From: Macrocystis pyrifera
Taxonomy: Eukaryota > Sar > Phaeophyceae > Laminariales > Laminariaceae
Length of the DNA: 64,000 bases
NCBI GenBank assembly: GCA_031763025.1
Contig: JASSKH010000028.1
Span: forward strand, 10,369,359-10,433,358
Direction: 5' to 3'
In this document: in pieces, positions 1,373 to 44,700 of the stretch
Position numbering within the stretch: the first letter of the stretch is position 1
How the letters are laid out: each line of letters begins with the position of its first letter
Program-made: the position numbers and the translations under genes
The notes under the pieces: model-generated
Seen by the model: the letters and a program-made list of their open reading frames with translations, nothing else
The model's database searches: none
What the model was told of the DNA's origin: nothing

Positions 1373-1790
1373 CTGCTATTACTCATGTTTCACCACTTCT
1401 GCTAATAGTACTACTGGAAATATTATTGTCAGACGAATAGGAGAGCAGTTGCGCTGACCGATCGACCAACCTTAGCGGCGGCGACAACGGTTTTTGCTGT
1501 GTAGTGGAGGCATGTGCAGGCTGCGATGATGATGTTTTTGCTTCTTTTTCTTTTTGTCGGGGAAGGGGAGGGCGGGGGGGGGGGGGGGTCTTGTGGCGTT
1601 ACCGCTGCGCTATATTTTTGGTTCTATTATTTTTGCGACGTATGTAGATGCGCACACGCGGACGTGTCAACTTATACCAGTATGTATACAGGATATAAAG
1701 TATACTTCGCAGTGTTTGGTTTGTAAGTCTTCCCCCCGTCCCGTCTCCGCCTTTTGGCCTCTTCCTTCCCCCCCCCCCCCCCCCCCCTCA

Positions 1791-2036
1791 TTGAAGCTGT
1801 CATCCGTGTGCAAGTCCGCCTCACAAAGTGGTTCTTAGTAGGATGCAGTTCATCGTTCATGCGACTCGCCGAACACCTCACGTTTCGCTTCGCGCTTGGC
1901 GCAAGCAATATCTGCCTGGTCGGTGAAAACCCGACGTGCTAAAATCCCGCATTGTAGGGGCGCGAGGGTCTATTGTCATAATACGAACACGACTACGGCC
2001 ATGCATGAATGTCGAGTACACCCCCCCCCCCCCCCT
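1791..2036 (+). mobile_element. SINE-like element (family A), C-tailed
   Basis: A copy of a dispersed family with conserved blocks GCTGTCATCC, GGATGCAG, GCGCTTGG.GCAAGCAA, CTGCCTGGTCGGTGAAAA, GAGGGTCTATGGTCATA and CGGCCATGCATGA, ending GAGTAC followed by a C-run (about 2023-2036). A C-run also precedes it (about 1769-1787). It lies directly upstream of the first recognised exon of the large gene. Confidence 0.8.
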
Positions 2037-2399: not shown

Positions 2400-3023
2400 G
2401 TTAATATATTTTGGTGTGTACTAGATGATTGACGACGGGATTATTATAGTATATCTGCCCACCGGAGGGAGGTCTGATTAGGGTGTGCTTTGGGTTGCGT
2501 GCGATCGTCGGCTGCCGCTGTGCTTCTTTTTTAAAATATTAAATAATGCGATGTGCTGGTACTTGTAAGAGCATTTCTAGGGGCCCTAGGAATCAGAAAC
2601 CACGATCGACCCAATACCTCAATGCCCCTCATGTTTACGATACCTTAGTTGGTTCGGATTGGTTCTAAGTGCTATGTTCGGAAATATAAGGACCTTCTAG
2701 GCATTCCTATGCATGTCCAAAAGTCCCTTACATTTTCGGACAGGGCGGTAATTGGCTTTTGGCTCTTTTGTCTCTTCCGCCTCTTGGTTTCTCTGCTTTC
2801 CCTGCGTGTCGCGAACATGTATATCAAATACAAAAAAAAAAAAAACGAACCTTTGATCGATTTTCTTTTTTTAATACCAGGCGAGCGACGTACGTCTGGC
2901 GTGGTCGAACGCAAAGCTGTTCAACCGCGAGGGGTCGGAGCTGTGGGCGGCGGCCGACCGGCTTTCGAACGAGTTTGAGGCGCTCTTCTGCGAGTGGGTC
3001 ATCAACCCGCCCGACGGTTTCGG
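2079..3023 (+). CDS. Bromodomain 1 (two exons)
   Basis: Exons 2079-2177 and 2881-3023. The first reads a V-P-G-Y start and a modified 'PIHL' in place of the usual PMDL, then a Y-x-N-x-F helix; it ends at a GTGAGT donor. The second continues with D-V-R-L-A-W-S-N-A-K-L-F-N, the conserved acetyl-lysine-pocket asparagine helix, and then a long C-terminal helix with ADRLSNEFEALF. The junction is phase 0 on both sides. The ZA-loop start must be in an exon upstream of 2079 that I could not find. The intron between them holds a long ATT microsatellite. Confidence 0.85.
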
Positions 3024-6000: not shown

Positions 6001-6855
6001 AATAGCGGGCGGTGGGTGAGGCACGTCGGGTATCGTGAAAGAGAGGTCTGACAATCGCACACGCAGTTTCAGCCGGATTTTATCCTTCCAGCGCGTTTCA
6101 TGTTTGGTGGTGAATCGTGGTTGGGGAGGGGGGACGGGGGAGATCGTGGGTCTGTCTAAAGACCCCAGCCACGACCAAACGCCCGTTTGTTCGTGTAAAG
6201 CACAGAAACACGCCACGTTTTTGAAACACGGGGTCGGGGTAAAAGGAGGACGAGGGTCGTCGATATACTTCCCGGCCAGGTTGCCGTCACCTACTTGCAA
6301 GTTTACTTGTGTTCTTAAAATCAACAAAACCTAATACCTGGTAGAAAACATTCGGGTTTTTTTTCACTCTCCATTTAATTTACAATTACCACTCGGGATT
6401 CCTCCTACCCCCCACCCCTCTAACACACCCTGCCCCCCCACCCCCCAAAGGCGACGTAATGAGAGCCCAAATGTTGAAGGTCTCTATTAGGCGTAGAAAC
6501 GGTGCTCCATCTCGAAAGGGATGCATGGTCAACGGTGAAATGGCTAAGGCAAGCAACAAATGAGTACGCGCCCCCCCCCCATGAAAACCCAACGTGCTCC
6601 GTCCCGGCGTTGTACGGATTCGAGGGTCTATGGTCATGCGATTACGGCCATGCATGACATGAGAGTACCCCACACACACCCGTGCGACTACAGCCATGCA
6701 TGACATGAGTACCCCCCCCCCCCCCCCCCCCCCCCCTGTGCGCTTGGTGCAAGCAATGTCTGCCTGGTCGGTGAAAACCCGACGTGCTCCGTCCCGGCAT
6801 TGTAGGGATGCGAGGGTCTATGGTCATACGACTACGGCCATGCATGATAATGAGT

Positions 6856-6901
<46 letters not shown>

Positions 6902-9900
6902 TTTGTGGTTTTGGACAGACGACCCACCGGCGGTGGCGGCGGCGACGTTGTCGGCTTCTGCTGCTGCAGAATCGGAGGATGCGGCGGCGACGGTGGCAGC
7001 GGTGGCGGCCACGGCATCCCCGCGGCAGGTTTTCCTAACACCCACGGGGGCGGTGGTTGTTGGGTTTCCTACGGCGCAGGCGTACGCGAAGGTCTACCAG
7101 GGGAGAGTCACGGCCGACCAGAAGGTTCGCTCAGTTAGTTTTGTTGCTACAGTGGTGTATATAATGCTGGTTGAGTAGTTCCGGCTTCCCGCTATAGTAT
7201 AGTTAGTGCCTGTGATTTCGCTTGGCACAGATGGGATTCACCAGTGCGGTACTAGTTGGTGTGCGGCGTAATTAGTGCCGTTTGGTTGCCGCTACGAGAA
7301 TAGTGCCGGTATTTTGTTGGCTCGCGCCTACCGGCACTATAGAGAGACCACGACCAGGTACTGTATAATACTGGTAATGGACTTCTCCTCGTACTATTAC
7401 GGGGGTTCATAGTAAATAGGACCTACGGTACACAGTAAAATCTATTTATTTGCCTATTTTTGCTAGCAATATTTGGTCCTATTCACTGTGGTCCCCCGTA
7501 ATATTAAACTACGTGAGTGATGCTGCTCCAGTTCCGAGTAGCAATTTTTTGAAGCCCCGAAACGTGGGGGGTGCAGTTGTATCCTACTCTAATCCCGATC
7601 GATTTGACATCGAGACGTGGGGCGCATGCACGTATATCCTATTTATATTTCCAGGTATTTTGTGTCCCCAAACTCGTGAGTGCAGCTCTATCCTGCTCTC
7701 ATAACTCCGAGTGGCTTGTTTGTCCCATGAAACACGGGTACACCTCTATCTCACTCTAGTTCCAAGTATGTAGGCTGTCCCCTGTCCCCGAAACGTGGAC
7801 GCACCTATATTACTCTATTTTCACGTATGTAGGCTGTTCCCTTTCCCCGAAACGTGGGTGCAGTTCTATCCCACTCTATTTTCAAGTACATAGGTTGTCC
7901 CCTGTCCCCGAAACGTGGGTGCTACCCAACTCTCATACCAATTGTGTAGGCTGTCCCGTCCCTGACCTGAAACTTGGGTGCAAATTCTATCCCACTCTAA
8001 TTCCATGTCGTTTGTCCCCGAAACGTGGGTTGCAGTATTGTCATATCCTACTCTGACCTCCAATCCTACTCTAATTCCGAGTAACTTGATCCGCAGAACG
8101 TCGGTACAGCTCTATCCTACTTTGCCTCGGTGACACAAGACTCGAGTTGTCGGCCAGGCTTTCTCTAGGTCCCAACATCGATGACTGAGGTCCAGCACAC
8201 TCGTGACCGAACCTCAAAAGCACTAAACCACAAATCACAACACATGGGTACGGTCGTGACAAGGGAGTGGATTTATCACGTTGTAGTATTATTCATGAAA
8301 CTAGAAAACAACGGCTGTGAGGTCGACGATTCCGTCGCTCAACTTTTGTGCACTGCTGTGGATTTAATTTTCAGTAGCATTGTTGTACATATGTACTGTG
8401 TGCTGCTGTCTACTGTCTGCACCTTTGATCTGACATGCACGCACGTTTCGCGAAGACAAATACAAAAACAACCCCCCGTCCTTTTCCGCCGTAGTCTCGT
8501 CCCCCCCCCCCCCCCCCCCCGTCCCATACGACTACGGCCATGCATGATAATGAGTACACCCCCCCCCTCCCGACTGAAAACATGACGTGCTCCGTCCTGG
8601 CATTGTAGGGGTGCGAGGGTCTATGGTTATACGATTACGGCATGCATGATATCGAGTACCCCCCCCCGCCCCCGCCCCCCCCTGACTCGCAAAACACCTC
8701 ACGGCGCTTCGCGCTTGGTGCAAGCAATGTCTGCCTGGTCGGTGAAAATCCGACGTGCTCCGTCACGGTTTTGTAGGGATGCGATTGACTATGGTCATAC
8801 GACTACTACGGCCATGCACGATATCGAGTACACCCCCCCCCCCCCCTCCCCCCCCCTCCGCCTTGGTCTCCGTCTCCCCCTCTGGGTGTACACAGACGAA
8901 GGCGGGTGCACGCAAACGCGATGTTTTCTTCACCGTTCCTGGGCAGAGTGGGGAGGACAGTGCCTACTATCTCGCCGTCGCCGGCTTTGACAGGCGAGCG
9001 AGCTAGAGATGGTAGTCGGTGTTGGTGTTGGTGGTGTTGGTGTTGGTGTTGGTGTTGGTGTTGGTGGTGTTGGTGTTGGTGTTGGTGTTGTGTTGGTGGT
9101 GTTGTTGGTGTTGGTGGTCGTGTTGGTGTTGGTGTTGGTGACGTTGGTGTTGGTGTTTGGTGGTCGTGTTGATATCGCTGGTATTCATCGTACTGGTGTT
9201 GGTGATCGTCCGTGGTGGTGGCGGGTGGTGGAGTTTGTGGGTGGTGTTGGTGTTGGTGGTGTTGTGGCGAAGCTGATGATGTTGGTGTTGGTGGCGACGA
9301 TGATGGTGTTGACGGTGTTGGAGTCAATGCGTGGTGTTGAATATTACGGGGGGCCGTATTAAATAGGACCTGCTGCACACACAAAAGCCTATATATTTTG
9401 CTATTTTTACTAACAATATTTGGTCCCGTTTCCTATGGTCCCCCGTAATAGTGCTTGTGGCGTTGTGTTGCATTATTGGTGTTTTATGACGGTGGTGTTG
9501 TTGGTAGTGTGCCGACTTTGTCTTAAGTACGATGACGTCAGCCATCTATACTTGGTACATATTTATGTCGCTGTTTCTCGTTGGCACGCCGTGGCCTCTC
9601 CGTTCCAGTGTGCCGACTTTGTCTTAAGTACGATGACGTCAGCCATCTATACTTGGTACATATTTATGTCGCTGTTTCTCGTTGGCACGCCGTGGCCTCT
9701 CCGTTCCTCGCCCCTCGCAATGTTTCTCTCTCACGCGCGCGTAGCATATCGGCTTTTTTGTGCCGTACGAAGCGTAGCGCTTCGTTCTGTCTCGGTGTCG
9801 TATACGGAGTGTAAAACAAGCGAAGCCACGCGAAGCGACTAGTTGCGTTCGGAGAGCGCGGTGCCGCATGACTACGGTACACAGCTTGTGCCCATTGGCT

Positions 9901-12900
9901 CGTAGTGCTACACGCTCGTAGACGGAAGCCGTTTTCAGGATTTCCATCGCTTGAAAGTATGTGTTCGTCTTGGGGGATTTTCACTACATGTGTATGTCGT
10001 GTGCATTTCGAACTTTCCACCACGTGTATTCATGTGTTTCCAGGATTTGTTTTTTTTCCTGATCTTTGTTTTTTTTTTTTTCGTATCACTATCGATAGAT
10101 AGCTTGAGCGGATCGCCCTCCAAAAGACATTGCTATTTTTTCCTACTTGTTTCTATTTTTTTCCGTTCTTGTTTTTTAGCGAGCTTGCTGCTTGGTGGGG
10201 CGTAATATATTTTGGTCCGTTGTTTATTCCGGTAGTGGGCGAGCATGCTGATGATGGGAGATTCGCCGATCATCAATTTCTGCGGCCGCCGCCACTGTCT
10301 TTACGTTTCGCGACAAACGTATTTTCCTTGTTCCCATCTGGAAAGGGATGCGTGGTCATTTGCCAGAGTTACTAAGGCAAGCAACCAATGAGCACGCCCC
10401 CCCCCCCCTCCCGCCGCCGCCGCTGCTGTTTTTCACTTTTCACAAAAAATGTGTTTTCTTTGCTCCCTCCCCCCCCCCCCCCCGGCAGAGTCGCCGGAAG
10501 CATCGACCCGGCGGGAAGCGGTGCAGGAATCGGCGACGACGGACACTTGGGGCTGATGATGCCCGACCTTAAGAACCGCGTCGAGGGGCTTCCGGGGGCG
10601 GATCAGTGCGAACTCTACGTTATCAAGGTACGGGTCAAGGGACCATGGCACCGGTGGTCGTGGCGGAGGTGGCGGCGGCGGCGGCGGCGGCGGTGGTGGT
10701 GGTGGTGGTGATGGAGGTTGCCATAGGGTGGGCGAGGTGGGAAGGAGGGGAGGGAAGCGAGGGGGGAGGGGGGGAGTCGTTGGTATTTTCGTATGTTGAC
10801 CTGCCTTGCGGAAGACAACATGCAGCAGTCGTTTGTGAAAAAAATCTCTCCGCGTTACGCCGTGGATTGAAAGGCTCAGAAAATGAAGCACTCATATTCG
10901 CGCGAGTTGTGCCCAGGGTCTCGACCAATCAACTTGGCCCTTACTCGAAACTCACGGCAGTAGCACAGCACCACAATAGAGATAACCACTACCTAATAGT
11001 GCAGTAGGATGAGAGGACAGCAATACGACGGTACAAGTAGGACAGCAGGACAACCGCAGCACGGTAGTGTAGTAGTCCCTCGTGAGCATTACAGTAGTAT
11101 ATATTACTTCTACGGCAGTAAGACAGTATTATGTATTGTAGGACAATAGGACGTACTGCAGGGAAGTAGGACGTATTGAAGGACAGTTGGGCAATATTAC
11201 GGCAGTGCCGGTTCTTGCTCGAAACAGCCCGTTGTCTCCTCCTTGTTCGAAGTCAGTAAAACACGAGGAGAGGGCGAGTGGGCGAACAACTTTATCACTT
11301 TATGCAGACGCTAGTATTTGCTTCTCGCGCTCTCAGGACATCGCTCGCCAGCAAGAAGACGTGGAGAAGGCGACGCAAGCTCGGGACATAGCCTTTGATG
11401 CCCTTCAGGTATGGACGAGAGAGGGGTTTGGTTTGGGGGTAGGTTTTGGGTTTTTGAGGTGGGGGCGGGGAGGCGGGGGAGGCTAGAAGAGGGGTGTAAC
11501 GTAGCTAAAAGTTCATCGCGGTCCATCCCGGAGCCAATAATTTGGTGTTGGTGCAGGGCATTACAAACTCGGCAACGTACCGCCAGTGCTCCCCCCCACC
11601 CGCACCCCTCGCCCGGTGAATTGGTAGCGTCCAGCCTCACATGGACACGGGCTTGCAAGTGTTTGTTTTTTTGTTTTATACGGTACGCGGTCCGATTGTG
11701 AGGCGCTTGGTGCAGCAGAAAATTCGCGACAACGGCAGAAGCAGTAGCATTAGAGGCAGCAGCGACAGCAAACCCAGCAGCCGACGCAGCAACAGCAGCA
11801 TCAGAAGCGGTAGCAGTAGCAGCAGCAGCAGCAGCAACAGCAGCAGCGGCGGCGGCGGCGGCGGCAGCAGTAGCGACAACAAGTAGTATATAGTAGCAGC
11901 AGCAGCATCAGCAGCAGCAGCAGTGGCGGCGCCCAAGTTCGCAGCAGGCCCGAACCACGCCCTTTCATCGCGGCCTTTTTGTTTCTCCCCCGCAGGCCGT
12001 GCGCGTTAGGCTGCACTCCCGGCTGGCGGAGGAGCGGTGGTACTGGTCCAAGGGGCGGGAGCGAGCGGGGGACGAGCGGCACGGCGTCTCGAAAGCGGAC
12101 ACTTACGCGGCGGCGAGGGAGCAGGCGCTGGAGAGGCACAGGTGCGACAGTAGTGGCCATAGCTATGAAGACGACGATAGTGAATGCGGCGAGGGTGGTG
12201 GTGGTGATGGTGGTGTGTTTTTTGTTTATGTCTTCTGTCTTCTGTTTCTATCGCGCTCTTTTATTTCCAGAACTGTCTTTCAACCTATTTTACGTCGTCC
12301 CCAGATGTAGCAGTGGCAGGCGGTTGCACGTTGCCTGCCTCGTGTAATGTTTGTTGTGTGTCGTGTTTTGTGTCGTGTGTTGTGTGTTATGTGCTGTTTG
12401 TTGTAATGTGTTGTGTTCTGTGTGCTGTGTTGTGTGCTATCGTACTGTAGTTTGCCCGCCTTTCCACCACGTTGTTGTACACCTGGCATTCGTAATTCGG
12501 CTTGAGTGAACTTTGCTTTCGGTTGAAAATCGACGAGCGTTGGGAAAGCTCAAGACCTACTGCTGTGCGATATATCGAAGGCATGTACCGCGCGGGTGGG
12601 GGGAAGGGACGCCTGTGACTACGGCTTGCCTAGCACGTCGCCGAACGTGAAACTGATTACCCAAGATATAATTATATCTGGATGAGTATTCATAGTAAGA
12701 AATTTAAGCTGGACTCACCCCCTCCCCCCCTCTGGGCGGCTATTTTTTTTGTTCTTGCTTTATGTCCTGCCTCTCAGCAAAAATACGTCATCGACGGGCG
12801 GGGGAAGCTCCGTCGGTGTTCCCGAATCGAGCCAACTGATTCCGCCTACGTTGGGAGACCCGGCACCGCTATTCGCAAGGTTCGTGTGGCATGGCATCTT

Positions 12901-15900
12901 CTTTGGGCTCGAAACTGCGTGTCATATGTGAAGTACGTATACTTGGCGCCAGTAAATACTCTGCACGGCTCTTTTTCTATCAAATTTCTAGCTGGTCTGT
13001 GGTATGAAATGTTGCCTTAGCCGCTTGTGTGTTCGCAGCGTGGCAACGGAACGAGGAGGAACGCGTTGGGTTTTCGACTACCAGCAGACGCATGCATGTA
13101 TGCCAGTCAGCACCAGCGCGAAATATGTAATAGGCCGGATCCGGCAGCGGTTAAGGCCTTGTGAGCTTTACGAGTGTAGCCAGCCGGTCACCCCTTTTTA
13201 GAGTCTCGCACCTCGCTAAATCATGGAACATGACGTCCTGCATCTACCTGCTCGGAGCAACCGTGGAACCGTCTCTCCGACCCTGGATTCTTCCCCTACT
13301 GCACATCCCCAATGCTGCAGGCTACCCACCTTTTTTATTTTCCGCACGCCAACCGAATCCAACTCAACCCACGCCATCATCGCCTACCACTTGTCAACCT
13401 AGTCTAGCCTAGCCTAATCCAACACGTTCCAACCTAGTCTGACCAAACCTACCCCATCCCAACCGAGCCTAACCCAACCCTACCCACCCCAACCTAGCCT
13501 AGTATTATCCAGCCCAACCTAGGCTAACCTATTATAACCTAGCCCACCTCACCCTACCCCGACCCACTCCTACCCACCCCAACTAACCCACCCTCACCCC
13601 ACGCCATCCAACCCAACCCCCAACCCAACCCAAATCAACCCAACCCACCTCCTGTCTCCGCCTGCCCAGCAATCCTGCGCTGTCCGGGTGCTCGTGGGCT
13701 GTGGAGCAGTCTCTCATGGCGTGGGATTTTCTGTCCTCGTCGCGCGATCTGTTGGGTTTTGTCCTCCCTCCTGCGAGGCGGATGATCGACGCCCTTACGC
13801 CCCCCATGGGCAAGGTGGGTTGTTGTTGGTTGTTGTGTGTCGTGTTGTTGGATGTTTTGTTGTGTTGGTGCTATGTTGTGTGTTGTGTTGTATCGTGGTT
13901 CGATGGTGTTGCTGTGTTAGGAGGTGCTGTGTCGGTACGTGCTGTGTCGTGTTGGTGTTGTGTTGTGTTAGTTGTTGTGTGTTTGCGTTGTTTATCGCGT
14001 GTTGTTAGGGTGTTGTCTTGGCCTATACCAGGTATCTGGTACCAGGTACCAGCTATGTGAACACGACCCCGTCCCCTTCCCTTGACCTTAGCCACCATCC
14101 ACCTTCCCTCCCTCCCTCCCTCAGGCCGCCGTCATCCCATCCCCGTCGGAGCTAGCATTCTCCGAGGCCTGCATGCTGCTGACCAAGCTGCTCCTGGTGG
14201 AAGTTAGAGACGTCCTGCGAAGGCACATGTCCAAGAAGCTGGTAGACGACGTCTTGGCACAAAGGTGGAGCGGGCTGGGGGGGGATAGGATACCGGTTTG
14301 GTACCCACCTTTACGCAATCCGTTTTCAACTGTTTCTTTGTGCGTCCTTTTCGCATTTTCGGAACTGACCGCGCCATTTAGCCGCTCAGAATAAGATCAA
14401 CAACGCCCTCGGGTGTTCTTCTGGCGACGCACTTGGCGCAACGATTTATTCGAACACATAATTGGCTGGTAGGGTCTCCCTCAACCCCCCCTCCGCCCCC
14501 CCGTTTTTTTTTTTTTTCTTCCCATCCCATTCATCATCTCCGCCCTTTTTGCTCCTGCTCTCTTCGTGTAGTCCCAAGTCAGATCCGGGGTAACTACGTA
14601 GGCTGTTCTCCCCCCTCCGCACCACGGTACGACTCTTGCGTTTTTATCGCTAGAAGAGTTGCGGAACTTTCTTCCGTCGTCGACTCGCGTCGAATTGTGC
14701 ATGCATACCCACGCTATGATAGGCTCTTTCGACAGTTGATGCCATTAGAGAATAAAAACTCCATACGGAGACTCGAACCCTCTACCTCAGCCTTGGTAGT
14801 GTTCGAGGTTAGCCGGGGCGACCGGTACTATGACCATACGACTACGACCATGCATGACACGAGAACTCCCCCCCCCCCCCCCCCGTCTCCCCCTCCCCTC
14901 CATACCTGGCGCTGTTTGGGGCCGCGCGTCGTCCCATTTGATGGTGAGCAGACCGATCAACCTCTTGACCTGGCCGGAGGTGGCCGGCGATGCATTGGTT
15001 GCTTTGGCCAATCACAGGGCGCACCCGGAGATGCGCACGAGCGAGATGGCGGCTCTTCTCAGCGTCCGGCCGTCGGGATGGCTCGCGAGGTGCGATGCGG
15101 TCGGTCTCTGCTGGATTTTTTTTGCCAGGCAGGGGTTGGTGGTTGGGAGGTCCCCTTGTCACGGTTACGGCGCATGCTTTTTTGTTTAGTGTGTGTTTCC
15201 GTGTGTTGCGTGGACGGAACAAAGGGGGACTCGGACAAGGGGTGTGTTTGTTTTGCTTTTCAATCCTGTTTGTTCCTGCTGCAAAAATGACCCCACTCTA
15301 ATTCCAAGTTATTTTACCCCGAAAAGGAGGGTGCAGTGGTATCACACAGGAGGAAAACACACCAGTATGACTGGTAGTCGCTCGGCGGAAGCGCGCAGAA
15401 ACAAGAGACCACGCGTTATTTCAGACCCGGCCCGGTATTCTGCAACTGTCTGCAGTGTCATACAGCAGTGATAGTAGTATTAATAGTAGTGGTAGCGGCA
15501 GCAGCATCATTAGCAGCAGTAGTTGCAACATATAGTAGCTGCAGCAGTAGTAATATAAGAGGAATTAGTCTTGTGTCTAGCTTTTTATGTAGTGCCAAGC
15601 ATTTAGAGCATATGTACAAGTACCCGCCTCTAGTAATAGTAATAGCGCGTTGACCCTTATCTTTGCCCCCTTCCCTCCAACTAACGTTGCGCCGACGACG
15701 CCGTGGCGGTACCGACTTTCACGCCCTTTTTTTTTCCTCCTCCCAGGTGTGGAGACATGGTGGCGATCATTATCTCGCGCCCGCTGGCAGCGGCGTTCGT
15801 GAGACCGGTGGACCCTGCCCTCGTCCCCGGGTACTCCGACGTGGTGTCGAGACCCATGGACCTGGTGAGCAATTATGCTACTATGGGAGGCGCTAGTAAT

Positions 15901-18900
15901 CGGAACCCGCAATGAACCCAAAAAACATATATACCACTCTGACCGGAAATATAAACACCCTTTGATGTCGATATCAGAGACCAAATGGGTGTTATATTTT
16001 CGGTCCGAGTGGTTTATATTTATAAAAATAAGAAACAACAGCTGTGAGATCGAGGATGTGGTCGAAACTCACATATTTGCAAGCTGTGTGTGATACTATA
16101 CTAGTGATACTTCGATCGCACGTACTACGGGTTTTATATGACCTAATCATGCAGGAAGTACATCCCGTATATGAGGATATACATGTAATATACGAGGCGA
16201 CCCTCTATTATTACCAACAATGTTTGGTTCTGATTGCTCTTTATGTCTCCCCGTCATGCTGTACCAAGTATATAGGGGAGACCGCGATTTGACCCCTTGA
16301 CTGACCGCCCCTTACTCTAAAACCAGTATGTTAAAAGCCAAACGAGGCCTTGGCGCGATCTCAAAATGACCGGTTTCCTACCTCTAGCGTGTTTGCTAAG
16401 TGAGAGACTCACAGCCGCGGAATGAGATCGCGAATCGTCTTTGCCCGGGGGAGGGGTTGCTGCTTGCTTCGTTCTTGGTATATAAACATATCGGGGTTAA
16501 TGATGAACCTTCAGTTAGTGTGCCTGCTGTATATATCGGGATTAATGGTCGAGTTCGTCTGTTACAGCCATGCTTTCCTTAACCACGGCTAGGTTTAGTG
16601 TTACAATCATAAATGCGAGTTTTTTTAATGGGCTTATTGTCATCGGTCGTGATGATGCGGGCAGAGCACCGTGCGTCGACGGCTGTGGAGCCGGCGCTAC
16701 CAGTGGCACCAGCAGGTCGTCGACGACCTGCGCCTCGTGTGGTCCAACGCCATGGCCTTCAATCAGGTATACTTGTACAGCGAGTAGTATGCACTTTAAT
16801 ATTACGTAGAACTGCGGCGTGTATGATATGTGCTGCATATACATGCTTTGTGCTGTCTGTGCTTTGCGTGCTTTAGGCTATGCATGCACCGTATTTGCTA
16901 GGTGCCGTAGGTACTTCAAGTGCTGCAGGTGTGGTATTACGGAGGTCCATAGTTAACAGGACCTATGGTGTACATAAAAACCTATATATTTACGTATTTT
17001 TCCTAACAAAATTTGGTCCCATTAACTATGGACCCCCGTAATAGGTGCTTTTTGTGTACCGTGTGTGCTGCAGATGTTGTTGGTGTTGTGATTCGAAAAC
17101 GCGAGCTGAAGGCGCGTAAGTTGTTGTATGTACTGTAAATGCTGTATTGTAGGTGGTGTAGGCGCTGCTGAGGTTGAAAAAAACTGCTGTGTCCGGGAGA
17201 AAAACGCTTGGTTACACGGGGGTGAGACGAGAGGCACACTCACACCCTGCTTGACGCTACGAGTGCGCCACCATACCCTAGCACACCGCACGAACCAAAC
17301 ACGTTCAAGCATCGTTTTCGCTTTTTGCTGCTGTTGTTGTTGTTGTTGTTGCTTTGCTTGCCCCGGCCGCGTGATGGTATTGACGACACTGATAACGACA
17401 AACAACGACAACGGCGACGATGATGAAACGCTTTCGGGGTGGGCGCAAGGAAACCACGGACTTCTGGCATGCGGCGGACTCGCTCTCCCTCCTGACGGAG
17501 TCCCTATACGAGGCGTGGGTGTTGCAGCCGGAGAGGCGGAGGGACGCCGAGAGCATGAAGGAGGCGGGGCTGGCGGGTGGGGGAGGGGGCGCGGCCTTGC
17601 CCCTGGCCTCCTCTTCTGATTCTCTCAGCCAGTCGGGGGTGTCGGACGTGGCGGCGGCGGAGGCGAGAGGGGGGGGGGGGGGGGGGGTGGACGGGGGGCA
17701 CACGAAGGCGAGTGCAGATATCCCATGCATGCGCTAAGCTTCGTCGACATGTAGACCGACACCGGGTAGAGGATCTCCTTGGGTGTGTTTGGTAGGGGTA
17801 TGATCTATATACTCTGGGGTACCCGGGTAGAAACCTGGTTGTTTTGGTGGTACTCGAGTAGGTACCCGGGTACCTCCCACATAAATACTCGGGGAGGTAC
17901 CCGGGTACCCCCCAATGATACTCGGGTAGGCACAAGGGTACTCCCCAGTGTGATACTCGGGAAGGTACCCGGGCACCCCCCAGAGTGATACTTGGATGGG
18001 TACCCGTGTAACCCCTAGAGTGGTACTCGGGTAGGCACTCGGGTACCCCCCAGAGTGTATACCTTGCAGAACACCTAACAAAACCTTGGATGCGTTCGAT
18101 TTGCCTTCCTGATATCTCGTTTTGGGCCTCTCGCTTTTTGCTTTCAGCTTTGTTTGTTTTTTGTTTCTGATCCCGTCATTTACATGCATAGCCCAGCGCC
18201 TTTGTTTGTTTTGGCCCGGCGCCACCGAATATGCATCCCCTTTTGCCAGTGATGCGCTCTTGGCTTTGATCGACTGCGGATGCGCGGCGGGGGTGCGTGA
18301 TACTGACTTACGCGACAATCGAACAAGCAGAATTGCTCTACATATCGTACCATCAAAAGCGTCGCTGTGTTTTGAAAGTTTTTTGCTACATGGGTGTGCC
18401 GCGCACATCGCTCCCCGAGCGCCGGCATAGTGTTACTCGATGGGTTGAGAGGGGGTGTGCTCGATATCAACTATGGCCGTAGTCGTATGACCATGGGTCC
18501 TTTTCATCCCTACAATGCTGGGACGGAGCATGTCGGGTTTTGTCCGTCGTTTACGCAGAAACCAGCGGATAGAGTGGCGTCCTCCAGGGGAGATGAATGC
18601 AGAGTCGTCGGGTCTGAAGACATTTTTTTTACCTTTTATAGGACTTGAGAGGAAAAACTGACGAACGTGATTTTTGATTGCAGCATCAGCCACAAGAAGC
18701 CACGCGGCGGCTGCTATTTGTTTAGGTTGCTAGGAGATGATGCTTGCAATGCTGGACTCCAATTCAAGGAATCGCACGACACGAGACGCTCATGTTGGAT
18801 GAGACTATCGTAGGGTCCTCGCTCACACTTTTAAAAGGCCGCAATCTTTTGGTTTTGTGTTGTTGCTTTCAATGGGTCCCACAAGGGTTATCATCTATTT

Positions 18901-21234: not shown

Positions 21235-24200
21235 TATACCCCCCTTTTTGTGTATCTCCCTTTCCCGCTATCCCTTCACCCACCTTCTACATACCCCTTC
21301 ACGCGGCAGGAGTTGCAGAAGAAGGATTTGGAGGTGGCTAGAGAAAAGGAAGAGAAGTGCGGAGGCGTCGGCGGCGGCAGCGAGGGGTCGGGGCAACCCG
21401 AACTTGACGGCGGCCAACCGTTCGAAGCACCAGGAGACGACGAATCGGCAGTACAAGGGCTGTCCCTCGTCCCCGCAGGTACGGTAACCATTGTACCCTC
21501 AAGTGCGGTATCTGTTGTTCTCTCCGAGTACAGTACCCGTTGTTCCCGTTCGAGTGAGGTAGCCATTGTACCCGCTGATGCGGCAACCATTGTTACCCTG
21601 CAAGTACGGTAGTCGTGGTACCCGCGGGTAAGGTACACATTTTTACCCGCAGGTACGGTAACGACTGTTACCCGCATGTAAGGTAACTATTGTTACCCGA
21701 AACTACGGTAGCCATTATACCCGCGTGTACGGTAACAGTTGTTAGCCTGCAAGTGCGGTAGTACTTGTTACCCATATGTAAGGTAACCGTTGTTACCTTC
21801 AAGTACGGTAACCATTGCACCCGTGGGTACAGTAACCATTGTTTCCTGCGAGTATGGTAGCCATTGTACCCGCCATTACGGTGACCAACGGGGGGAAAGT
21901 TTAGACACTCTTTACAGCAGTAGTAGGTAAGAGTCAAGCGTTCGTTGGGAGCTCGCGACCGGTTGATCGGGCGTATCTGCGTCAATTCGCCGAGAGTACA
22001 TGTCGGTGCGGTGCATCCTGCTGCCTTTTGGTGTGGTACATGCTCCTCTCCTGTTTTTGAGAAGATGCACCGATATTCTGCTTCGAAACGGTACTGGTTC
22101 AAGCAACCTTCTATCGTATCTCGACCATGGAGAGTTTGTTTCGTGCGTGTTGATCTTGATTTGTTCCGTTGACAACCTTCAGCAACAGCTGTAGTGTAGG
22201 TTATTGAGTGTTTCGGACGACAGCGGCCGAGAGAGCCGGGGCCGTAGTAGGCCTCCTCATTTTGTTTTCTGCGGCGCATTTCTTAGTTGCCACGCTGCCC
22301 CACGACAGTTACATATAACCGTACCACATTTTCTATCCCCTATGCAATTTCGTGCTCCCATGCGTGTGGGCTTGGGTGTGAGTGTGTGCCGAATGACTTC
22401 TGCAACCCCCCCCCCCCGACGTGACAAGTGGATGCGAGCAAGTCGAAGCAGAGCGGAGCACGCGTTTTATACTTTTTCGTAAGAATGTCGCCCGCCACTC
22501 CACCTCCCCCCTCTCTTCGCCCCGCGCATATGATGGAAGCGTTCGGGGACCTCCCTTGGTGCCTCCCGTCCCCTCCCCCCCGCCAACCCCCCATCCTCCC
22601 CTCCCCCCCCCTTTCCCCAACCCCCTCATCTCAACCCCCTCCCCCCTCAACGTCCACCCCCCCCCCCCCCCCCCCTTCACCTCTCCCCCCCTTCCCCCTA
22701 CCCCTCCCCCTCCCCTCCCTCGTGTGTGCCCGCCTGCCTTCCTTCGTTCCTACCTTATCTGCAAATCCGCCCCCAAAATAATTAAAGATCCCCTCGACGT
22801 CGCCTTTGGCGGGGGCATCTGTTGCCTCTGCGGCGGCGGCGCTAGTGTGTCCGGCGGGTCCGACCTTCTAGACGGGGCGAGTGGCGGGTGGGTGCTGGTG
22901 CCCCCCGAGCTGAAGTCCCTCCCGGCCAAGCTCTTGCCTCGCTTCACGCACCTGAGGAGGGGGGGGGGGGGTGAAGGTTGTGGCGGAGGCGGGGGAGGAG
23001 GAAGCGTTGTTGAGGTTACTCCGGAGGAGGGTGAGAGTTGTAGAAGCAGTAGCGGTAGTAGTAGCAGTGGTAGTCGTGGTAGTAGTTGAAGTAGTAGTAG
23101 CAGTAGTAGCGGTAGTAGCAGTAGCAGCGACAGCAACAATAGCTGCAGTAGCAGCAAGCCGACTTTTTTTTTTGTTTAGTTCCGTTCGGTGCTTGTTGTT
23201 GCACGATGCTCGAGAAGGGGTCATGGGGGGGGGGAAGGGGGGGGGGGGGGGGGGGGGTACTCGGTATCATGCATGACCGTAATCGTATTGACCTGGGGGG
23301 AGGTTAGGAGGGGGAAGGCGGGAGGTGGGAGACGGGGGAGGAAGGGACAAGGAACGGGGGATGTTGTGTTTTGTGCTGCTTGCCACCCCTGAATGTCATC
23401 GCCGTCGTTGTTGCTCTGCCGTTGGTTGATGTTGTCGGATATTCCTGACGTTCAGATCCTTCATTTTACTTTCGGTGTGTGTAATGTATGGAGGCGGGAG
23501 TCCTCGGAGTCATGTGCTGGGAGTAGCGTGTGAACGTTGTCAAGAAGGAAAAAAAAGAGATGGGGGTGGCATGTGCATTGTCGCGTGCGGAATCGGATCC
23601 TAGTCGCCGCCGTGCCGCCTTTTGATTGGATGAATAGGACTGCGACATGGACGAGGTCCTATTTAATATGCCCCCCCACAATAGTTGTACGACACGCTCG
23701 GAGCACCACAAACAAGACACTCGTACGAAAACATGATCACGCTTATAGTTGCAGATCGTCCGCCTTACCTGGTACACAGCAGCAGTAGGTAGACGGTCGA
23801 ACGCTTCAGAAGGGCACGAAAAGATCTGTGCAGGTTTTTTCGCGCACGACGCCCCATGGTGCGCAAATTTGCACTCCCCTGAAACACAATGCGCCTCAAC
23901 GTGTTGTGGCCGAAATGACGTTATTCATTTTTTCCATCAACGTTTACAGCTGGTGAAGCGCGAAACATAAGACATGACAACGCCAGAGAGAAGACAGCAC
24001 GTATTAGTTAAACACCCCTGCCCCCCTCCCCAACCCCCGCCCACCCACCCACTTACTCACCCACCCCCGCCCACCTAGCCACCCACCCACCCACCCACCC
24101 CACTGACTACCATGCCCGCGCCTTCTTCCATACTTGTACATGACGCTTTTTGTTTGGCGTGGCCTTTCAGGAGCCGAAGTCCTCGCGTCGCCCCTCGCGT

Positions 24201-26746: not shown

Positions 26747-29700
26747 TCCACTAAAAGAGATGTACTCGATGTCATGCATGGCCGTAGTCGTATGACCATA
26801 GACCCTCGCATCCCTACAATGCCGGGACGGAGCACGTCGGGTTTTCACCGACCAGGCAGACATTGCTTGCACCAAGCGCGAAGCGCCGTGAGGTGTTGAG
26901 CGAGTCGTATGAAGGGTGAGCTGCATCCTTCTAAGAACCGCTTGTGAGGCGGACGAGCATATGGATGACAGCTTCAATGAATCAATTTAATTTCCGGTGT
27001 AACCAACATCCAGAGACAGCAATGGGACTACAATGTGACTGCCTCTTGGGTGCCTTACCATGAACACTACGTGATACGATCATTCCCCTTATGCGGAGTA
27101 AAGGTTGTTCACCTCGCACAAATGATCTAACTGGATCACCAGCTGTGACCGACCGCCAAAAAAAAAAAAACGGTACCCTGGTTGTCTAGCTCAAGTAGTG
27201 AGCGGCATATTTTACAGTGTCGTAGCCATCCGACGCCAACCCAACCTATATATAATCGGGGGGGGGGGGGGGGCGTACTCATTTGTTGACTGCCTTAGTC
27301 ATTTGACCATTGACCACGCATCCCTTTCGAGACGGAGCACCGTTCATACTTCTAATAGAGACACCTCCAACAATTGGGCGCTCATTACGTTGTTTCCATA
27401 TATTACATGGAAACATTTTGTTAATCTTATCCTCTTCCTGCTTGGCCACTGCTTGGCCACCTGTGGCCACCATCTATCTCCTAAGATAGCGATCGTTTTC
27501 TCGCTGCTATTCATTGTCACATTCGTCTATTTCCCTCATCTCCTCTTCTAACACATCCCGTTCCTCCTTGTATATTTCACATCCTCCTACTATGTGAGTT
27601 CTACTCTATTGCTTTGCCACACGGGCACATCTGTGCATCTACGCCCTCCTCCTCCCGGCTACTGGTGTACCTCTTTCTTCTTTCTGGCAGGTCCAGGTCC
27701 CCTACACGAAAGCGCAGTTTCAGCGTTTTCGCGAAGTCCATTGGGCCATGCAAATACGTTTTCATTCCTATTCCTTCCCTCAATCCCCCGTATATCTCCA
27801 AGTGTTTTTCCGATTCCACCTTGTTTCTTAGCGCTAGCCTTTCCCTTCTTTCTATCCTTTCTTCTACTTCTGCTTTGTACCTCCCAAACTTCCCGGCGGA
27901 CATCATCTCTTCTTGGTTTCCCCCTATATCCTTCCATACTTTCTCAACTACGCCATCCCACCTTATTCCAGCTCGCCCTTTATTTACTTTCTCCCATGCA
28001 GCTCTATCAACTATGGCTGGCAACCTCTTTTTTGGAATGTTCCTTACTTTATATTGCCAGCTCAACTTTCTCATGTCTCTATTTGTCTTGAGTGGGTGCA
28101 TTTCCAGTTCTGCTCTTAATACTGTCTTACTAGTCGTACTTGAGCATCTTAGGAGTTTTTTAGCTGCTGTCATTTGTACTGTTTCCAAATGTTTTACGAG
28201 TTTCGCGTTCCCTTTCCATACTTCTCCTGCAAATTCTAGCTTTGGTACTATCACATTCATCAAGATACATAGCTTAATCCTAGTTTGTTAGGATCACATC
28301 CATGTTGCCTACTTGTGCCTTACCCTTTCCTATTACTTTTGCTATATGTGTATCCCAAGAGCAGTCTTTTGAGATCTCTACGCCAAGGTATGCATACTGG
28401 TCTACGATCGGCAATTCATCTTCTCCCCACTTCCAACTGAAATTTACCGGGTCTACCTTGTCTTCGTTACAAACAACTACTGCGCGTTTCTTGACGTTCG
28501 CCGTCACCCTCCATTTCCTGGTGCATTCTAGCGCCTTCTCTGTTTGTTTCTGCCATCCTTCGGGTGTTTCTGATATCCCCACGAAGTCATCCGCAAACAT
28601 CAATCCCGACGCCGCGTCTTCCCCTACCGTGACTCCCTGCCTTGCTGCCTCGACTGCTACTATCAGGTCGGAAATATATATCTTGAATAAGTTAGGTGAC
28701 ACCGTACATCCCATAATCGAGGGGGGGGGGCTGATTCATGCAAGTATGGTACAACATAAAACGGTCGATCGTCACGTTCACGTTTTTGGACCGCCCAGAC
28801 CAGCCGCCTGCTGAGCCGCCGTTGAAAAGGTTGGCCCGGGTGCAGGTAGCCTCTTTGTGGCTGGGCCTTTCTGTCTCTTTTTTGTTCGGCTGGCCTATTT
28901 AGAGCTTATTTGACCCATGTATCCCCAACCGTACTCTGACCCCAACCCTTACCGTATCTCCTAAACAAAAAAGCCCTCTCCCTAACCCTATAACTGACTA
29001 TTAATAACAGGTTCATCGTCCTGTCGCGCCTCTCTCTCTGTCTGTGCTCCTTTCTCTGCCCCCCTCTCCTCCCACCTCTCTCTATCCCCTTCCCCCTCAT
29101 TATGTCTCCCTCATCCCCCCGCCCCCTTTCCCGTCTCTTTTTTCTCTCTCCCTCTCTGTCTCCCTCCCTCTCTATCCCCCCCGCCTCTCTCTCCGCCTCT
29201 CTTTCGCGGTCTCCGCCTTTACTTCTGTCGCTCTGCCCCCCCCCCCGACTCTCTTTCTCGGCGGCGGCTATCTCGGGTAAAAAACAAACTTGCCCTATCA
29301 CCTCAAAGGCCGGCCACGAGGACCGACGCTGCACCCGAAACCGTCCGCTCGGGCGAGACCGGTACGGCAATGAGTACTGGCGCTTTGCGGGCGACAAGCA
29401 CTTGGTCCTGGTGCGGAGGCACGGCTGTTGGTGGGGTCTCTACGACGGCCCGGAGAAGGTACGCGCGATACTGGGATGGTACTGGCACAGGGTGGGGTGG
29501 AATGGGATGGGGTGGGCTGCTCCCGTCGACCGTTGAGCTCCCCCTCACCCTGCGAATGGTAGGTTTAGTTTCGTTTCTCCGCCGAAAGTTGTGCGCCGTT
29601 GTGCCTCCATCCGGCGTTTTTTTTTTTTCTTGCCGCACAGAGGGAGAAGGCCTGAGAAAGTGGCAAACGGCGGGATTAGAAAACCCCCAAGTATTTGTTT

Positions 29701-34298: not shown

Positions 34299-37200
34299 AC
34301 TCCTATATTATATACCTGGTGTAGATAGGTTGGGTTGGCGTCGGTTCGCGACGACGCTGTAAAACACGCCTCTGAGTGCGTGAGCTAGACAGCCAGGGTA
34401 CCGTTTTTTGTTTTTTTGCGTTACCACAGGTGGCGGTCGAGTTAGATAATTTTTGTGCGGATAGAACCATTTTTCCACACAAGGGGGGTGATCGTATCAC
34501 TTGGTGTGTATATGGTAAGGCACCCACGAGGAAGTTACATAGTAAACCCATTCCTGTCTCTGGAAGTGGCCACACCAGAAATTAAATCAATTAATTGATG
34601 CTGTCATCCATATGCAAGAAAATCTGCCTCTAAAGTGGTTACTAGTAGGATGCAGCTCACCCTTCATGCGACTCGCCCAACACTGCACGGCGCTTCGCGC
34701 TTGGTGCAAGCAAGCAATGTCTGCCTGGTCTGTGAAAACCCGACGTGCTTCGTCCCGGCATTGTAGGGATGCGAGGGTCTATGGTCATACGACTACGGCC
34801 ATGCGTGATAATGAATTTACCCCCCCCCACGCCGCTTGCCTCTCCTTGGGTATTGTGTTTGTTTCTGCGCGGAACCTCTTCCTCTCGCGACGTTCCCGGC
34901 TACTCGTTCCCTGCTCCCTGCCTTCACGCTTTTTTCGGCCCATTTGTGTCTGTCCGATCCGATTCCGGTCGTGTCCTGGCCCCATACTCCTTCGAGAAAA
35001 CGCTACCGCTACCGCTCACGTTAGCGCGGACAACATTTAGTTGTTAATAGTGAAGCCTCATGAACTTGCGGTCATTCAACAATGCGACTGGCTCTAATAT
35101 CGCCACGCGTTACGCGGCAATACTTGCACAACCGCGTTCACCGCTCACTCGCCCGCTGCCTGCTCTCTGTTGTCCGATACCCACCGTCCGGCTGTGTGCG
35201 CTGTCCACTGCCCGTTGTGTCCCCTGCCCGCCGTCCCCTGTTCCCTGTCCACTGTCCGCTATCTGCTGTCCGCTGCCCCTTGCCCTCCGTCGTCCGTCCG
35301 TCGTCTGTTACCCATTGTGTGACGCAAACGGTTCCGGTTCAGGTGGAGATGCTTGCCGTGGCGCTTTGCCTCCCGCAGCAGTGGGAGCGAGTTAACACCG
35401 CCCCTTTGCGGGGCTCGACGAGGGGGAAGCCCCGGCAGCGGCAGAGCAGCGTCGCTGGCGATGATGCCGCCGCAGACGCAGAAGCGGCGGCGGCGGCGGA
35501 AGCGGCAGCGGCAGCGGTGGGTGTTGGTGCGGCGGGTGGGATGGTGGCGGGGACAAACGGAAGGTCGTCTAACGTGGGGGGCAGGCGTTCGACGTCGCCG
35601 GTGGTGCTGGCACCGGGACAGTTCTTCTCTCCGTCAAGGGGGATCGCGCCCGAGCTGGCTGCGGCGTTGAAGGAGGCGGTCGAGCAGCAGGCGGCTTACG
35701 AGGAAGCGGCGGAAGAGCAGGCAGAGGCAGACGCGGAAGCAGCGGCGGCGGTGGCCGCCGGCGACGATGAAGACGATGACGACGGCGGCGCCGGCGGCAG
35801 CGGCGCTGGCTACGGCAACGACGATGTCGACATCGGCATGGAACCGGGCACCGCGGCGGCGCCACCAGCTTCGCCAGAAACGGAGCCAACGCCCGAGCCC
35901 GAACCCGAACCCGAACCCGAACCTGTGCCAGACCAACCGTTCGTGAGGAAGGCACAAGGGAAGTGGCTGTCGGTGGAGTCTAGCAGCGACGAAGAAGACT
36001 TTGAGGACGACGAGGTCGCGACGGGCATAGCCGAAGAGGGCGCAGGGGTGGAGGCGGAGGCGAATGTGGCAGCGGAGGCGGTGGTGGAGCCGGCTGGAGC
36101 GGGGGATGCAGGGGTGTGCAAACCTTCGTCGATGGAGTTGGAGAGCCGGTCGGTGGCCCCGGCGGCCGCTCCCGAGATTGTCGCCGACGTGTCCACGGCT
36201 GCCGGACCGATTGCTTCTAACGGCGACGTGGAGGGTACGAGCCCGGCGGATGCCGCAGTACCAGACAGTGGACAAGGTCTGGAGGTGATGGCGGCGGCGG
36301 TGGCGGTGGCGACGCAGGCGGCAGCCTCGGCGGTGGCAGCGGCGTCAGAGGCGGTGGTGGAGCCCGTGGTTGACGTCGAAATGCCGGACACTCCGGCTTT
36401 GGTGAAGGCAGAACCCGAGCCCTCACCGCCTGCGCCTGCGTCTGCGCCTGCAACAGCTCGTTTGCCGGAAGCTTCGACGGTGGGCGTCGCCCAGACGATG
36501 GAGATTGATGTCCTTGAGCCGCAACATGCTGCATTGCCAGACGCGCTGCTGCCGCCGGTACAGCCGCCACCTGCAGCAAAGGAGCCGGAAAAAAAAAAGC
36601 CCGGAGTAGAGATTATGTCGATGCCGATGGACCTGGAAGACTGGCGAGAAAGGGTGAGACGCGCGGAGACTACAGAAGGGCTGGCGAACCTCGCCTTGGA
36701 GTTGGACTTTGCCCTTCCGCGAGAGGAGGGGTGGCTGGAGCCGTGGTATAAGACGGAGAGCTTCGCGGAGCCTCGCTTGGGTGGGGGCTCGTCGCTTGCG
36801 GCCGCCGCCACGCGAGTGTTTGCCCTCGACCGCGCCCTCCGGTGGGACTTTATCCCCCGCCCTCGCCGGGGGGGAAGCCGGCTTCCCGGAGACCTGCCGC
36901 GCGTGTGGGCGTTCTTTTACCAGTGCCCCGCGTCGCCCCTATGCACGCGCCCGTGCATGCACAAGGGCAAGTGTAAGAGCCACCGCAGCGGAATCTCGCG
37001 GGTGGACCACCCGATGGTGGTGCCGACCCCGCCGTACACGCCGCCCTACGTGGCGCAGCACGCGGCGCAGCACGCGGCCCAACACGCGGCCCAGACCGCG
37101 GTCCAACAAGCTGCGCAGCACGCGGCTCAGAATGCGGCTCAACATGCTGCGCAGAAGGCGGCGCAACAGGTGGCGCAGCACGCAGCGCAGCATGCTGTCG

Positions 37201-41741: not shown

Positions 41742-44700
41742 CTACCGCGGCGGCAACCCCCCCGCGACAAACGCCTCCTCTTCTTCTTCCTCCTCGAACG
41801 CCCTGCAGTCAAACATCGGCGGCGCGTCGAACCTCATGCCCCTTGGCGGCAGGAGCTCCGCCGACAGCGCCGGGGACATGGCAACCGACGAGACCTCATC
41901 GTAGCTCAGGCTTCCCCCGCCCCTACCCCCCGCGCGCCTCGTCCCCGGAGGTGTATCGGAGGCAGCCGCAGGCCTCCCTCCGAGAGGTGATAATAATACT
42001 GATGCTGATGAAGGTGATGATGATGGCGCGGGCGCCGATGCCACAGAGGGCGCCGAAGAAAAAGGCGTCATTGGAAAAGACGAAATCGGAGCCATCATCG
42101 GTGTCGACGATGGCGGTTCCGCCGCTACCGGCGACCCTACCTCCCAAGCGCCTCCCGCGGCATCGATTCCACCACCACCCCCCCCCGCCCGCCGCCGCCG
42201 CCGCCGCCGCCGCCGCCGATGCCGCGGCTGGCGCGATTTGTTGCGTTGGCGTTGGGATCGCTGGCGTTGATGGTGGCTGCATGGACGCGAAAAATCCGCC
42301 CGGGGCGAACCCCACCGCGACGGGCGTGGTTGCCGCCACTATTGTGGGTGTTCCGCCCGCCGTCGGGGTCGCAGCCGGTGAGGTTGGCCCTGCTTCCGCC
42401 GCAGCCTCTGCGCAAAACAAAGGACCGCGAGGTACAATATATGCAGGCAGGGACAAATGTAATTTAGCAGGACGACGACGCCACTGTCAGGGTGGAGTGA
42501 GCTTGCCTTTTTACACTCTGTTTTGCTCATCAGTACCTACCTGGTCATAGTGTACCCCTGGTACGTACGGTACTATTATACCAAGCTGCGCACAATTAGT
42601 TTTACATTTGGACCAACCATCTTCGTCCTTGGACAATTAATCGGCATCCGTTACTTCTACGCGGATCATAAGTATCAGTTTTTTTCAAACGGGTACATTT
42701 CCCGTTTTTAGAAAACCGGGTGGGTGGGAGCTTGGGGGGGGCGAGAGAGAGAGAGAGAGAACATACAGTCGCACCCTTGTTTGCCTTGGCCCTGATGCGC
42801 CTTTTCTCGTTCAGGTACATCTTTTTCAGGCAATCGCCCGTCATGTTCAGCTCCGTCGGCCACTTTAGAGCGAGCTGCGAAATTGGCGTGCACGAGGGAG
42901 GGGAGGGGGTAAGTACAAGGAGGGGCGAAAGGGGGTGCAGAGGGGCGGTGTACTCATGTCATGCAAGGCCGTAGTCGTATGGCCATAGACCCTCACATCT
43001 TTACAACGCCGGGACGGAGCACGTCGACTTTTCATCGACCAGGCGGACATTGCTTGCACCAAGCGCGAAGCGCCATGAGGTGTTCGGTGAGCCGCATGAA
43101 GGGTGAGCTGCATCCTACCAAGAACTGCTTGTGAGACGGGCTTCGGCACCCTGTGCGTGCTTTGTTGCATACGGATGACAGCGTCGAATTGATTTAGTTG
43201 AATTCCAGTGTGGTCACTCTCAGAGATAGCAACGGGTATACCTACCTTGTATGTAACTGCCTCGTGGGTGCCTTACCATACAATCATGACCGTTGTGCGG
43301 AGTTAAGGTTCTCCACCCAGCACAACGTGATCTAACCCAAGAGGGGGTCGGGGGGGGGGGGTGGAGGGAAGCGTGGTCATTGCACCGTTATGTTAATTGA
43401 TTTACCGCGTCACGTTGGCATTATACGTATAGAGGTTATGTCTCATTTTTCGCTTATTTTCTAACCTGCAGAAAGTTGGCACATAGATGGCGATGCCTTG
43501 TTGTGACAACAACGACACCACCACCGACACAAACCAACACCATCACCACGACCAACACCACCACCACCACCACCACCACCACGACCATGACCACCACGAC
43601 CACCACCACCACGAAGAAGCAGATTGTTGCCGCGCGTCTCCCTGAAACCGACAAAGCCAACAACAAGGAACCCCCGTGGTGGTGGGTGTAAAGTAGCACT
43701 CCCGGTGGAAGTGGTGGGTGTAAGGTGAGGGCGACTGTTGACTTACCTTGTCGTACAAAGATTTGTTTTCGGTCATCGCCTGCTTGGTTCTCAAGCCACT
43801 GAAGGAAGCAGGCGCGCGCGGGGTCGGCGGGGGGAGGGGTAAATGGGGGGGGTAAGTAGAGAGGGGGGGGTGTACTCATGTCATGCATGGCCGTAGTCGT
43901 ATGACCAAGTGGGGAGGGGGAGGAGGACGTCAGGACCAACCATATGAAATTGAGACAGCAGCACTGGAACCACCTGCAACATCGAAGGAGCAGTACTATA
44001 TCAGCGTTTCGGCGCGAGAGAGAAGTTGATGCCAGGGATTCATGTATGACGCCCGGGCACACGTCGCCTGCATACAGCCTCTGAATAACTCGGGTCAATT
44101 AGGAATTCACATTTTTGCGCCAAAATTGATTCATTTGATTGGCTTGCGATTTCACCAGGGTATTCCGGAGTATGGTGGATGATACCGGGGTACCAGGTAC
44201 TATACATGACATCTGGTAGACAGCATGATAGACTACACCAGAGGTTGTTGCATATGATGCCAGGGTACATATCAAGCTCTTACATGATACCGAGCTCAGG
44301 ACATTGCAGCAGTGCGCCTGCCATGCAACGCCAGACTCTTGAACCACAGACCGTTCAGTCCACTTGAAGTGCCTCTAACCCAACCAAATATTTCCTTACG
44401 GAGTACCTCCGGCCCTTCCCGTGTGAATTCCTTCCCGTTCTTATCCTTTAGAAAAATACCTCGACGTTTTTTTCGACATGTATATACCTTTCACGGCTAA
44501 TTTTTCGACTTGAAAGTCTCCGCTGTTTCTTCCACTTGAAATCTCTACCGGCAACCGTTCCTTCCGCTTGTATTTCATCACCGACTGTCCTATGATACGT
44601 GGAATGCCTTCCCGATGTTTCCACATGAAACGCCTCACCGCTGCACCCGACCCGTGGCGATGGCCACACGGTGGTGTCACTACCGGGTGGCGGCTTACCG

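Follow-up and report, generated by a model that had tools for sequence, protein, structure and literature searches.

The most abundant single family in Ectocarpus is RTEX-N1_Ec32, a non-autonomous element of ~600 bp with >6000 copies (PMC12477816). Its 3' end is conserved with the autonomous RTE-X LINEs RTEX-1_Ec32 and RTEX-2_Ec32. In the part of the source on this family, the origin of its 5' part is given as unknown and the authors consider it a possible SINE (PMC12477816). A 64-kb stretch of Macrocystis pyrifera DNA, here called the window, and other loci of the same genome contain a family, here called family A, which resembles RTEX-N1_Ec32. It is abundant and non-autonomous, its 3' end is common with a LINE, and its 5' part is unlike that LINE. 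Family A is ~508 nt as against ~600 bp, and the C-runs and arrays of the kelp pair find no mention in the passages on the Ectocarpus family considered here. The kelp pair may well be the counterpart of the RTEX-N1_Ec32 system, and this likeness suggests that the kelp LINE may be RTE-like, or RTE-X.

Stringent LINE/SINE pairs include Bov-B/Bov-tA and UnaL2/UnaSINE1. The 3' sequence shared by Bov-B and Bov-tA is thought to be recognized by the LINE enzyme; Bov-tA carries a tRNA head, and some RTE partners carry an RTE 5' end instead (PMC3747384). Like Bov-tA, family A shares 3' sequence with its LINE; it is without a tRNA head. Green-algal RTEX families end with (CA)n, (CAA)n, (CCAT)n and similar repeats, and no C-run tail appears in the part of the table considered here (PMC3747384).

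Insertion into simple repeats is described for Dong, which targets (TAA)n, and for the telomeric TRAS (PMC2887409), and Togen inserts into (TG)n (PMC4640811). The APE-type target-specific families in the relevant part of that source are Tx1 and the R1 clade (PMC4640811). RTE elements are described as inserting without sequence specificity, with duplications of 6–12 bp (PMC2887409). The kelp pair is similar to Dong, TRAS and Togen in its probable insertion into simple repeats; a mononucleotide C target is not described in the portions of those sources considered here. Its preference for C-runs contrasts with the lack of site specificity described for RTE integration. The titles and abstracts turned up by a literature search include no poly-C-targeting element. 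Zepp of Chlorella is a LINE nested into its own copies, and we know of no SINE partner of Zepp. Its tail is poly(A) (PMC3747384). The kelp LINE would also nest into its own copies, and differs from Zepp in having C-runs rather than poly(A) and family A as a partner. Here we propose that an APE-type LINE and its parasite, family A, probably retropose into (C)n tracts, including the tails of earlier copies.

Samples and Counting Rules

The first set consists of 20 stretches, each 10 kb long and placed at round coordinates of four contigs, picked without regard to content. The window, itself picked in the first-pass annotation, was analysed alongside them. Together they cover 264 kb with 32 family A and 13 LINE hits, and 30 and 13 of these have sufficient flank. 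The third set comprises loci picked via the LINE end, from which 12 loci duplicating others were removed. One locus was counted for each of the groups L006/L015/L016/L020/L022, L001/L002/L005/L017/L019/L021, L008/L010, L012/L013, and L007/L009. Near-identical arrays are repeated within these groups (for example, L008/L010 and L012/L013), mostly across several small contigs. They are segmental duplicates or unplaced haplotypes.

A 5' C-run is at least 6 C within 30 nt upstream of the 5' end of a copy, with up to 6 nt inside the copy tolerated. A 3' C-run is at least 6 C within 45 nt past the terminal motif.

Copies and Structure of Family A

A blastn search of the window with its longest family A copy yields 14 matches (Table 1), one at each position listed in the first-pass annotation, so that every listed position is recovered. 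The weakest two, near 14828 and 23247, have E-values of ~5e-5 and 2e-4. Allowing at most one mismatch, the window contains the sequence ATGAGTACCCC 8 times versus 0.97 expected. Genome-wide, the 21-mer TACGACTACGGCCATGCATGA near the end of family A has 11,910 exact copies and its reversed control has 0.

Table 1. Copies of family A and the LINE in the 64-kb window.
Position	Strand	Feature	Method
1787..2020	+	Family A, 5'-truncated, C-run on both sides (the copy first noted)	
6454..6566	+	LINE 3' fragment, end ACAAATGAGTACGCG plus C10, family A fragment immediately after	
6582..6668	+	Family A fragment behind LINE C-run	
6737..6857	+	Family A fragment, C25 on one side and C45 on the other	
8525..8558	+	Short family A 3' fragment behind C20	
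8575..8659	+	Family A fragment, head-to-tail array with 8525..8558	
8684..8832	+	Family A fragment, head-to-tail array with 8525..8558 and 8575..8659	
10334..10395	+	Short LINE 3' copy, ~62 nt, module only; outside the counts	
14828..14878	+	Weak family A 3' fragment; outside the counts	blastn
18456..18546	-	Family A fragment, 5' side without C-run	
23247..23293	-	Weak family A 3' fragment; outside the counts	blastn
26761..27255	-	Near full-length family A, directly downstream of LINE C-run	
27276..28712	-	5'-truncated LINE, RT C-terminal remnant, C10 upstream of 5' end	
34305..34819	+	Full-length family A, preceded within a few bases by C35 and followed by C9	
42949..43336	-	Family A copy	
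43871..43907	-	Short family A 3' fragment	
48773..48833	+	LINE copy, ~60 nt, module only	
49406..49464	-	LINE copy, ~60 nt, module only, with C18 a few bases before it	
49950..50139	-	LINE 3' fragment, 5' end without nearby C-run of 6	
63841..63891	+	Short family A 3' fragment behind CCCCCCC	

Fifteen aligned copies, the majority full-length, give a family A consensus of 508 nt without the flanking C-runs. Among 50 copies whose 3' end is intact and whose flank is long enough, 12 have the full length (494–508 nt in consensus coordinates) and 38 are 5'-truncated. This bears out the earlier view that most copies are truncated at varying points, which fits target-primed reverse transcription. The first-pass annotation also described the end as a motif plus a C-run. 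A C-run does follow most motifs; the motif itself is variable, occurring as AATGAGTAC, as ATCGAGTAC, and in a doubled form. The subform with the doubled motif ends with ATCGAGTACATCTCTCCTATCGAGTAC; in the deduplicated set, a loose pattern for it matches 6 times.

Around position 100 of the consensus is a T-run of variable length, 5–39 T in the 14 copies reaching there. The variability can be seen in L004, L006, L028 and L030, for example, and the T-run length is possibly a marker of age or of slippage. The 5' head (consensus 23–90) contains the nested hairpins GCGTCG/CGACGC and GCTCAC/GTGAGC, with a folding energy of -26.5 kcal/mol. The fold of the head alignment is no better than that of column-shuffled controls.

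Family A was also considered as a DNA transposon, and this was rejected. Terminal inverted repeats are absent (the first 40 nt against the reverse complement of the last 40 score 5.0, with a shuffle mean of 5.6), and the variable 5' truncation argues against it. Viral contigs, from which records of this genome may be excluded, contain neither an exact family A 25-mer nor relatives of the LINE RT. A 112-mer used as a DNA query had 0 matches, which does not mean absence since very common words are skipped in such a search.

The LINE and the Shared 3' Module

The terminal 21-mer of the LINE, AGGCAAGCAACAAATGAGTAC, has 4,131 exact copies in the genome and its reversed control has 0. One LINE copy, in L052 and L001, extends for ~4.1 kb from an upstream C29, its putative 5' end, to its 3' end. 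It contains pieces of an APE endonuclease and an RT spread over several frames. The RT matches RVT_1 (PF00078) with an E-value of 1.4e-14. The endonuclease matches PF03372 (1.7e-4) and PF14529 (4.6e-5), both below the gathering scores. The nearest PDB relative of one RT piece is L1 ORF2p (7.9e-9).

The 3' consensuses of the LINE (40 copies) and family A (54 copies) align across 66 and 74 nt, respectively, from GTGCTCCGTC to GAGTAC. Even without the terminal motif, this shared module scores 27, while the maximum of 1000 shuffles is 18. The first-pass annotation paired family A with the LINE on the basis of the terminal motif and the C tail and took the rest to be unrelated. The pairing is supported by the common 3' module and by a partner encoding endonuclease and RT; the second statement is wrong, as homology extends beyond the terminal motif through the 66–74-nt module. 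Family A and the LINE are a true LINE/non-autonomous pair, ordinary in kind.

Outside the module, the similarity between the body of family A and the LINE is no higher than that of shuffles, and the head is not similar to the LINE copy over its first 500 nt. An origin of the body or head from the LINE 5' end, as in RIME or Bov-A2, was rejected because nothing rises above shuffles, the LINE 5' end used here being putative. A 3' hairpin of 5 bp is present in 30 LINE ends with 87–97% pairing, and a different, weak hairpin in 37 family A ends. The joint alignment of 67 LINE and family A ends has no common 3' stem-loop.

C-Runs at the 5' and 3' Ends

In the 20 stretches, a 5' C-run is seen in 16/18 copies of family A and 6/8 copies of the LINE (together 22/26). 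The window has it in 10/12 and 4/5, so that the two sets combined give 26/30 for family A and 10/13 for the LINE, with a G-run in 0/43. In the LINE-selected loci, the counts are 15/26 for family A and 23/27 for the LINE; the share of family A is clearly lower here than in the other sets. A 5' G-run is seen in 0/96 copies of all three sets, and 15/56 family A and 7/40 LINE copies are without a nearby C-run of 6. By the same test, 2.8% of random positions have a C-run. MITE-like ends in the same sequence have a C- or G-run within 30 nt upstream in 1 case out of 52.

At the 3' side, a C-run follows 16/18 family A and 4/5 LINE ends in the 20 stretches (together 20/23), and 24/29 and 9/10 when the window is included. 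The simple repeat of the probable target flanks most copies on both sides (22/26 at the 5' end and 20/23 at the 3' end in the 20 stretches). The C-runs at 5' ends are absent from the first-pass annotation, which overlooked the probable C-run target. Because C-runs are also present at 5' ends, target sequence probably makes up much of what was called the C tail.

C-runs are common in this genome in any case: of the 123 with 10 or more C, 74 are not in contact with any detected element. Among copies with a 5' C-run, no element or motif lies just before the run in 25/41 family A and 23/33 LINE copies. Runs of C or G of at least 15 outnumber those of A or T by 35 to 22 in the 20 stretches and 59 to 22 including the window, with a GC content of 52%.

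Other repeats lie in the same sequences. A MITE, mostly ~109 bp, has the form TATTACGGGGG...CCCCCGTAATA with a TA end, and is found at 1264-1372, 7395-7503 and 9342-9450 of the window and in L014, L026, L031, L032, L033, L040, L048 and L049. There are 13 full pattern matches in the deduplicated loci and the window. Judged by its ends, this MITE is presumably Tc1/Mariner-like. Long trinucleotide-type repeats (TTA, GTT/GGT-rich) are visible by eye near possible exons at 2230-2400, 3020-3260 and 8990-9330 of the window.

Truncation at the Module Edge

Among the 28 deduplicated LINE copies of at most 270 nt, 16 begin 59–65 nt from the 3' end, which is the edge of the shared module. With a log-uniform null, this peak has p ~5e-14 for a bin picked post hoc. 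Genome-wide, 289 sites in the reverse-strand column, as a raw count, have C8 within 6 nt before the edge of the LINE module, against 4 of 1025 reverse-strand copies of the 22-mer starting 30 nt further upstream; the G8 version of the edge has 0. The forward-strand column gives 788, a count inflated by overlapping starts. At the matching place in family A, the C8 count is 41 (reverse-strand column). The excess of family A truncations near the module is weaker: 10/38 at 72–90 nt (p 0.001, also post hoc).

Half of the 16 LINE breaks (8) are at 59–63 nt on CTCC, and the other 8 are at 64–65 nt at GTGCTCC. A C-run could pair at the CTCC of the 59–63-nt breaks. As a general cause of truncation, CC microhomology was rejected: it is enriched in the LINE (0.68 versus 0.19) and not in family A (0.55 versus 0.48). 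It is proposed that reverse transcription stops at the module edge and that family A arose there by a template switch.

Junctions and Arrays

The base past GAGTAC is A in 31/53 family A copies and G in 24/35 LINE copies, and C in most of the remainder. One copy, on the minus strand at 3968 of L036, has (C)10TCATCCCAG both before and after it, as if the target duplication started with the C-run. As a set, 86 copies have target duplications not clearly above those of shuffled pairs. Duplications of at least 3 bases beyond the C-run are seen in 12/86 (shuffled mean 8.9, maximum 16), and those of at least 6 bases in 5/86 (mean 1.8, maximum 7). Between the 5' and the 3' end of a copy, C-run length shows no correlation (rho -0.003, n=81); slippage and homopolymer assembly errors could erase such a correlation. 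As an association, the C-run target is unusual and well supported. The details of cleavage are not supported to the same degree, because the duplications are within the shuffle range and the end lengths are unrelated.

Neighbouring copies at most 80 nt apart are on the same strand in 33/33 pairs. All are head-to-tail, and all four combinations of family A and the LINE are represented. By source, 4 pairs are from the 20 stretches, 5 from the window, and 24 from the LINE-selected loci. At distances of 80–2000 nt, 20/25 are on the same strand. The same-strand pairs can be explained by a strand-specific C-run target, because the next target, supplied by a tail, would have the same orientation. They would also be expected from template jumping.

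Discussion

The proposed mechanism draws on the shared module, the domains of the LINE, the C-runs that flank most copies at either end, the same-strand arrays and the LINE hot-spot, all as observed above. Family A would be a non-autonomous retroposon of ~500 nt, composed of a LINE-unlike 5' body and a LINE-like 3' module of ~70 nt, and is presumably copied by the enzyme of the APE-endonuclease LINE with the same module. Both families would insert at (C)n/(G)n tracts via target-primed reverse transcription. In the presumed order of steps, the G strand would be nicked, and its 3' end would prime reverse transcription from ...YGAGTAC(A/G). The C-runs would then be older than the insertions, and a new copy would sit between C-runs in a single orientation relative to the tract. 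Head-to-tail arrays of family A and the LINE could build up because every insertion leaves a 3' C-run where new copies can land.

The length, copy number and LINE-like 3' end of family A would all fit a classical SINE made by RNA polymerase III, and the consensus fold of the head is stable. The top A and B boxes are within the shuffled expectation, however, and matches to tRNA, 5S and 7SL are all absent. ARAGORN reports zero tRNA genes in nine loci, and Rfam no relevant match in the window copy and seven loci. A T-run ends pol III transcription, and the 14 long copies carry one internally. A pol III origin is thus highly improbable, and the transcript of family A would be made by pol II or by read-through. 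The pol III promoter that the first-pass annotation proposed to look for is, in family A, no better than in shuffled sequence. Its term "SINE-like" is supported in the sense of a non-autonomous element whose 3' end is common with a LINE; with such boxes and the T-run, it is not supported in the sense of a pol III SINE.

The C-runs themselves could have other origins. The 5' C-runs might be untemplated G additions at the cDNA end, with the 3' C-run being a tail of the RNA. The unrelated lengths at the two ends would agree with this, as would the element-specific base before the 3' C-run (A 31/53 in family A, G 24/35 in the LINE). It is nevertheless improbable, because upstream runs reach 49 C, long for such addition, many C-runs stand apart from any detected element, and neighbours are on the same strand as expected of a target. 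Arrays might instead form in one integration, by an RT jumping between C-tailed RNAs with no preference for a C-run target. Such jumping would place adjacent pairs on the same strand, as in 33/33, and LINE copies of 59–65 nt resemble early departures from a template. It would leave unexplained the plain C-runs upstream of single copies and the duplication in L036, and the 25/41 family A and 23/33 LINE copies without an element or motif before their 5' C-run do not fit it either. We regard it as unlikely, if less so than untemplated addition.

Retroposition into (C)n tracts would thus be the preferred reading. More tentatively, one can speculate that the pair makes its own landing sites: each copy would plant a new C-run, arrays would grow one way, and the genome would become richer in C-runs as the elements multiply. 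The smallest unit able to move might then be the 65-nt module, and an RT template switch might have given rise to family A at exactly the module edge at which LINE copies are still cut short. This joint reading is possible, though somewhat less likely than not.

If retroposition into C-runs is correct, family A and its partner would be an APE-type LINE/non-autonomous pair that targets a mononucleotide tract, (C)n, and propagates by both exploiting and creating it. C-run targeting would be unusual for an RTE-like element, the kind suggested by Ectocarpus, since that kind is described as not site-specific. The minimal module of ~65 nt would offer a system in which to study how templates are recognized and switched. 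C-run targeting could also help to account for the many long C-runs in this genome.
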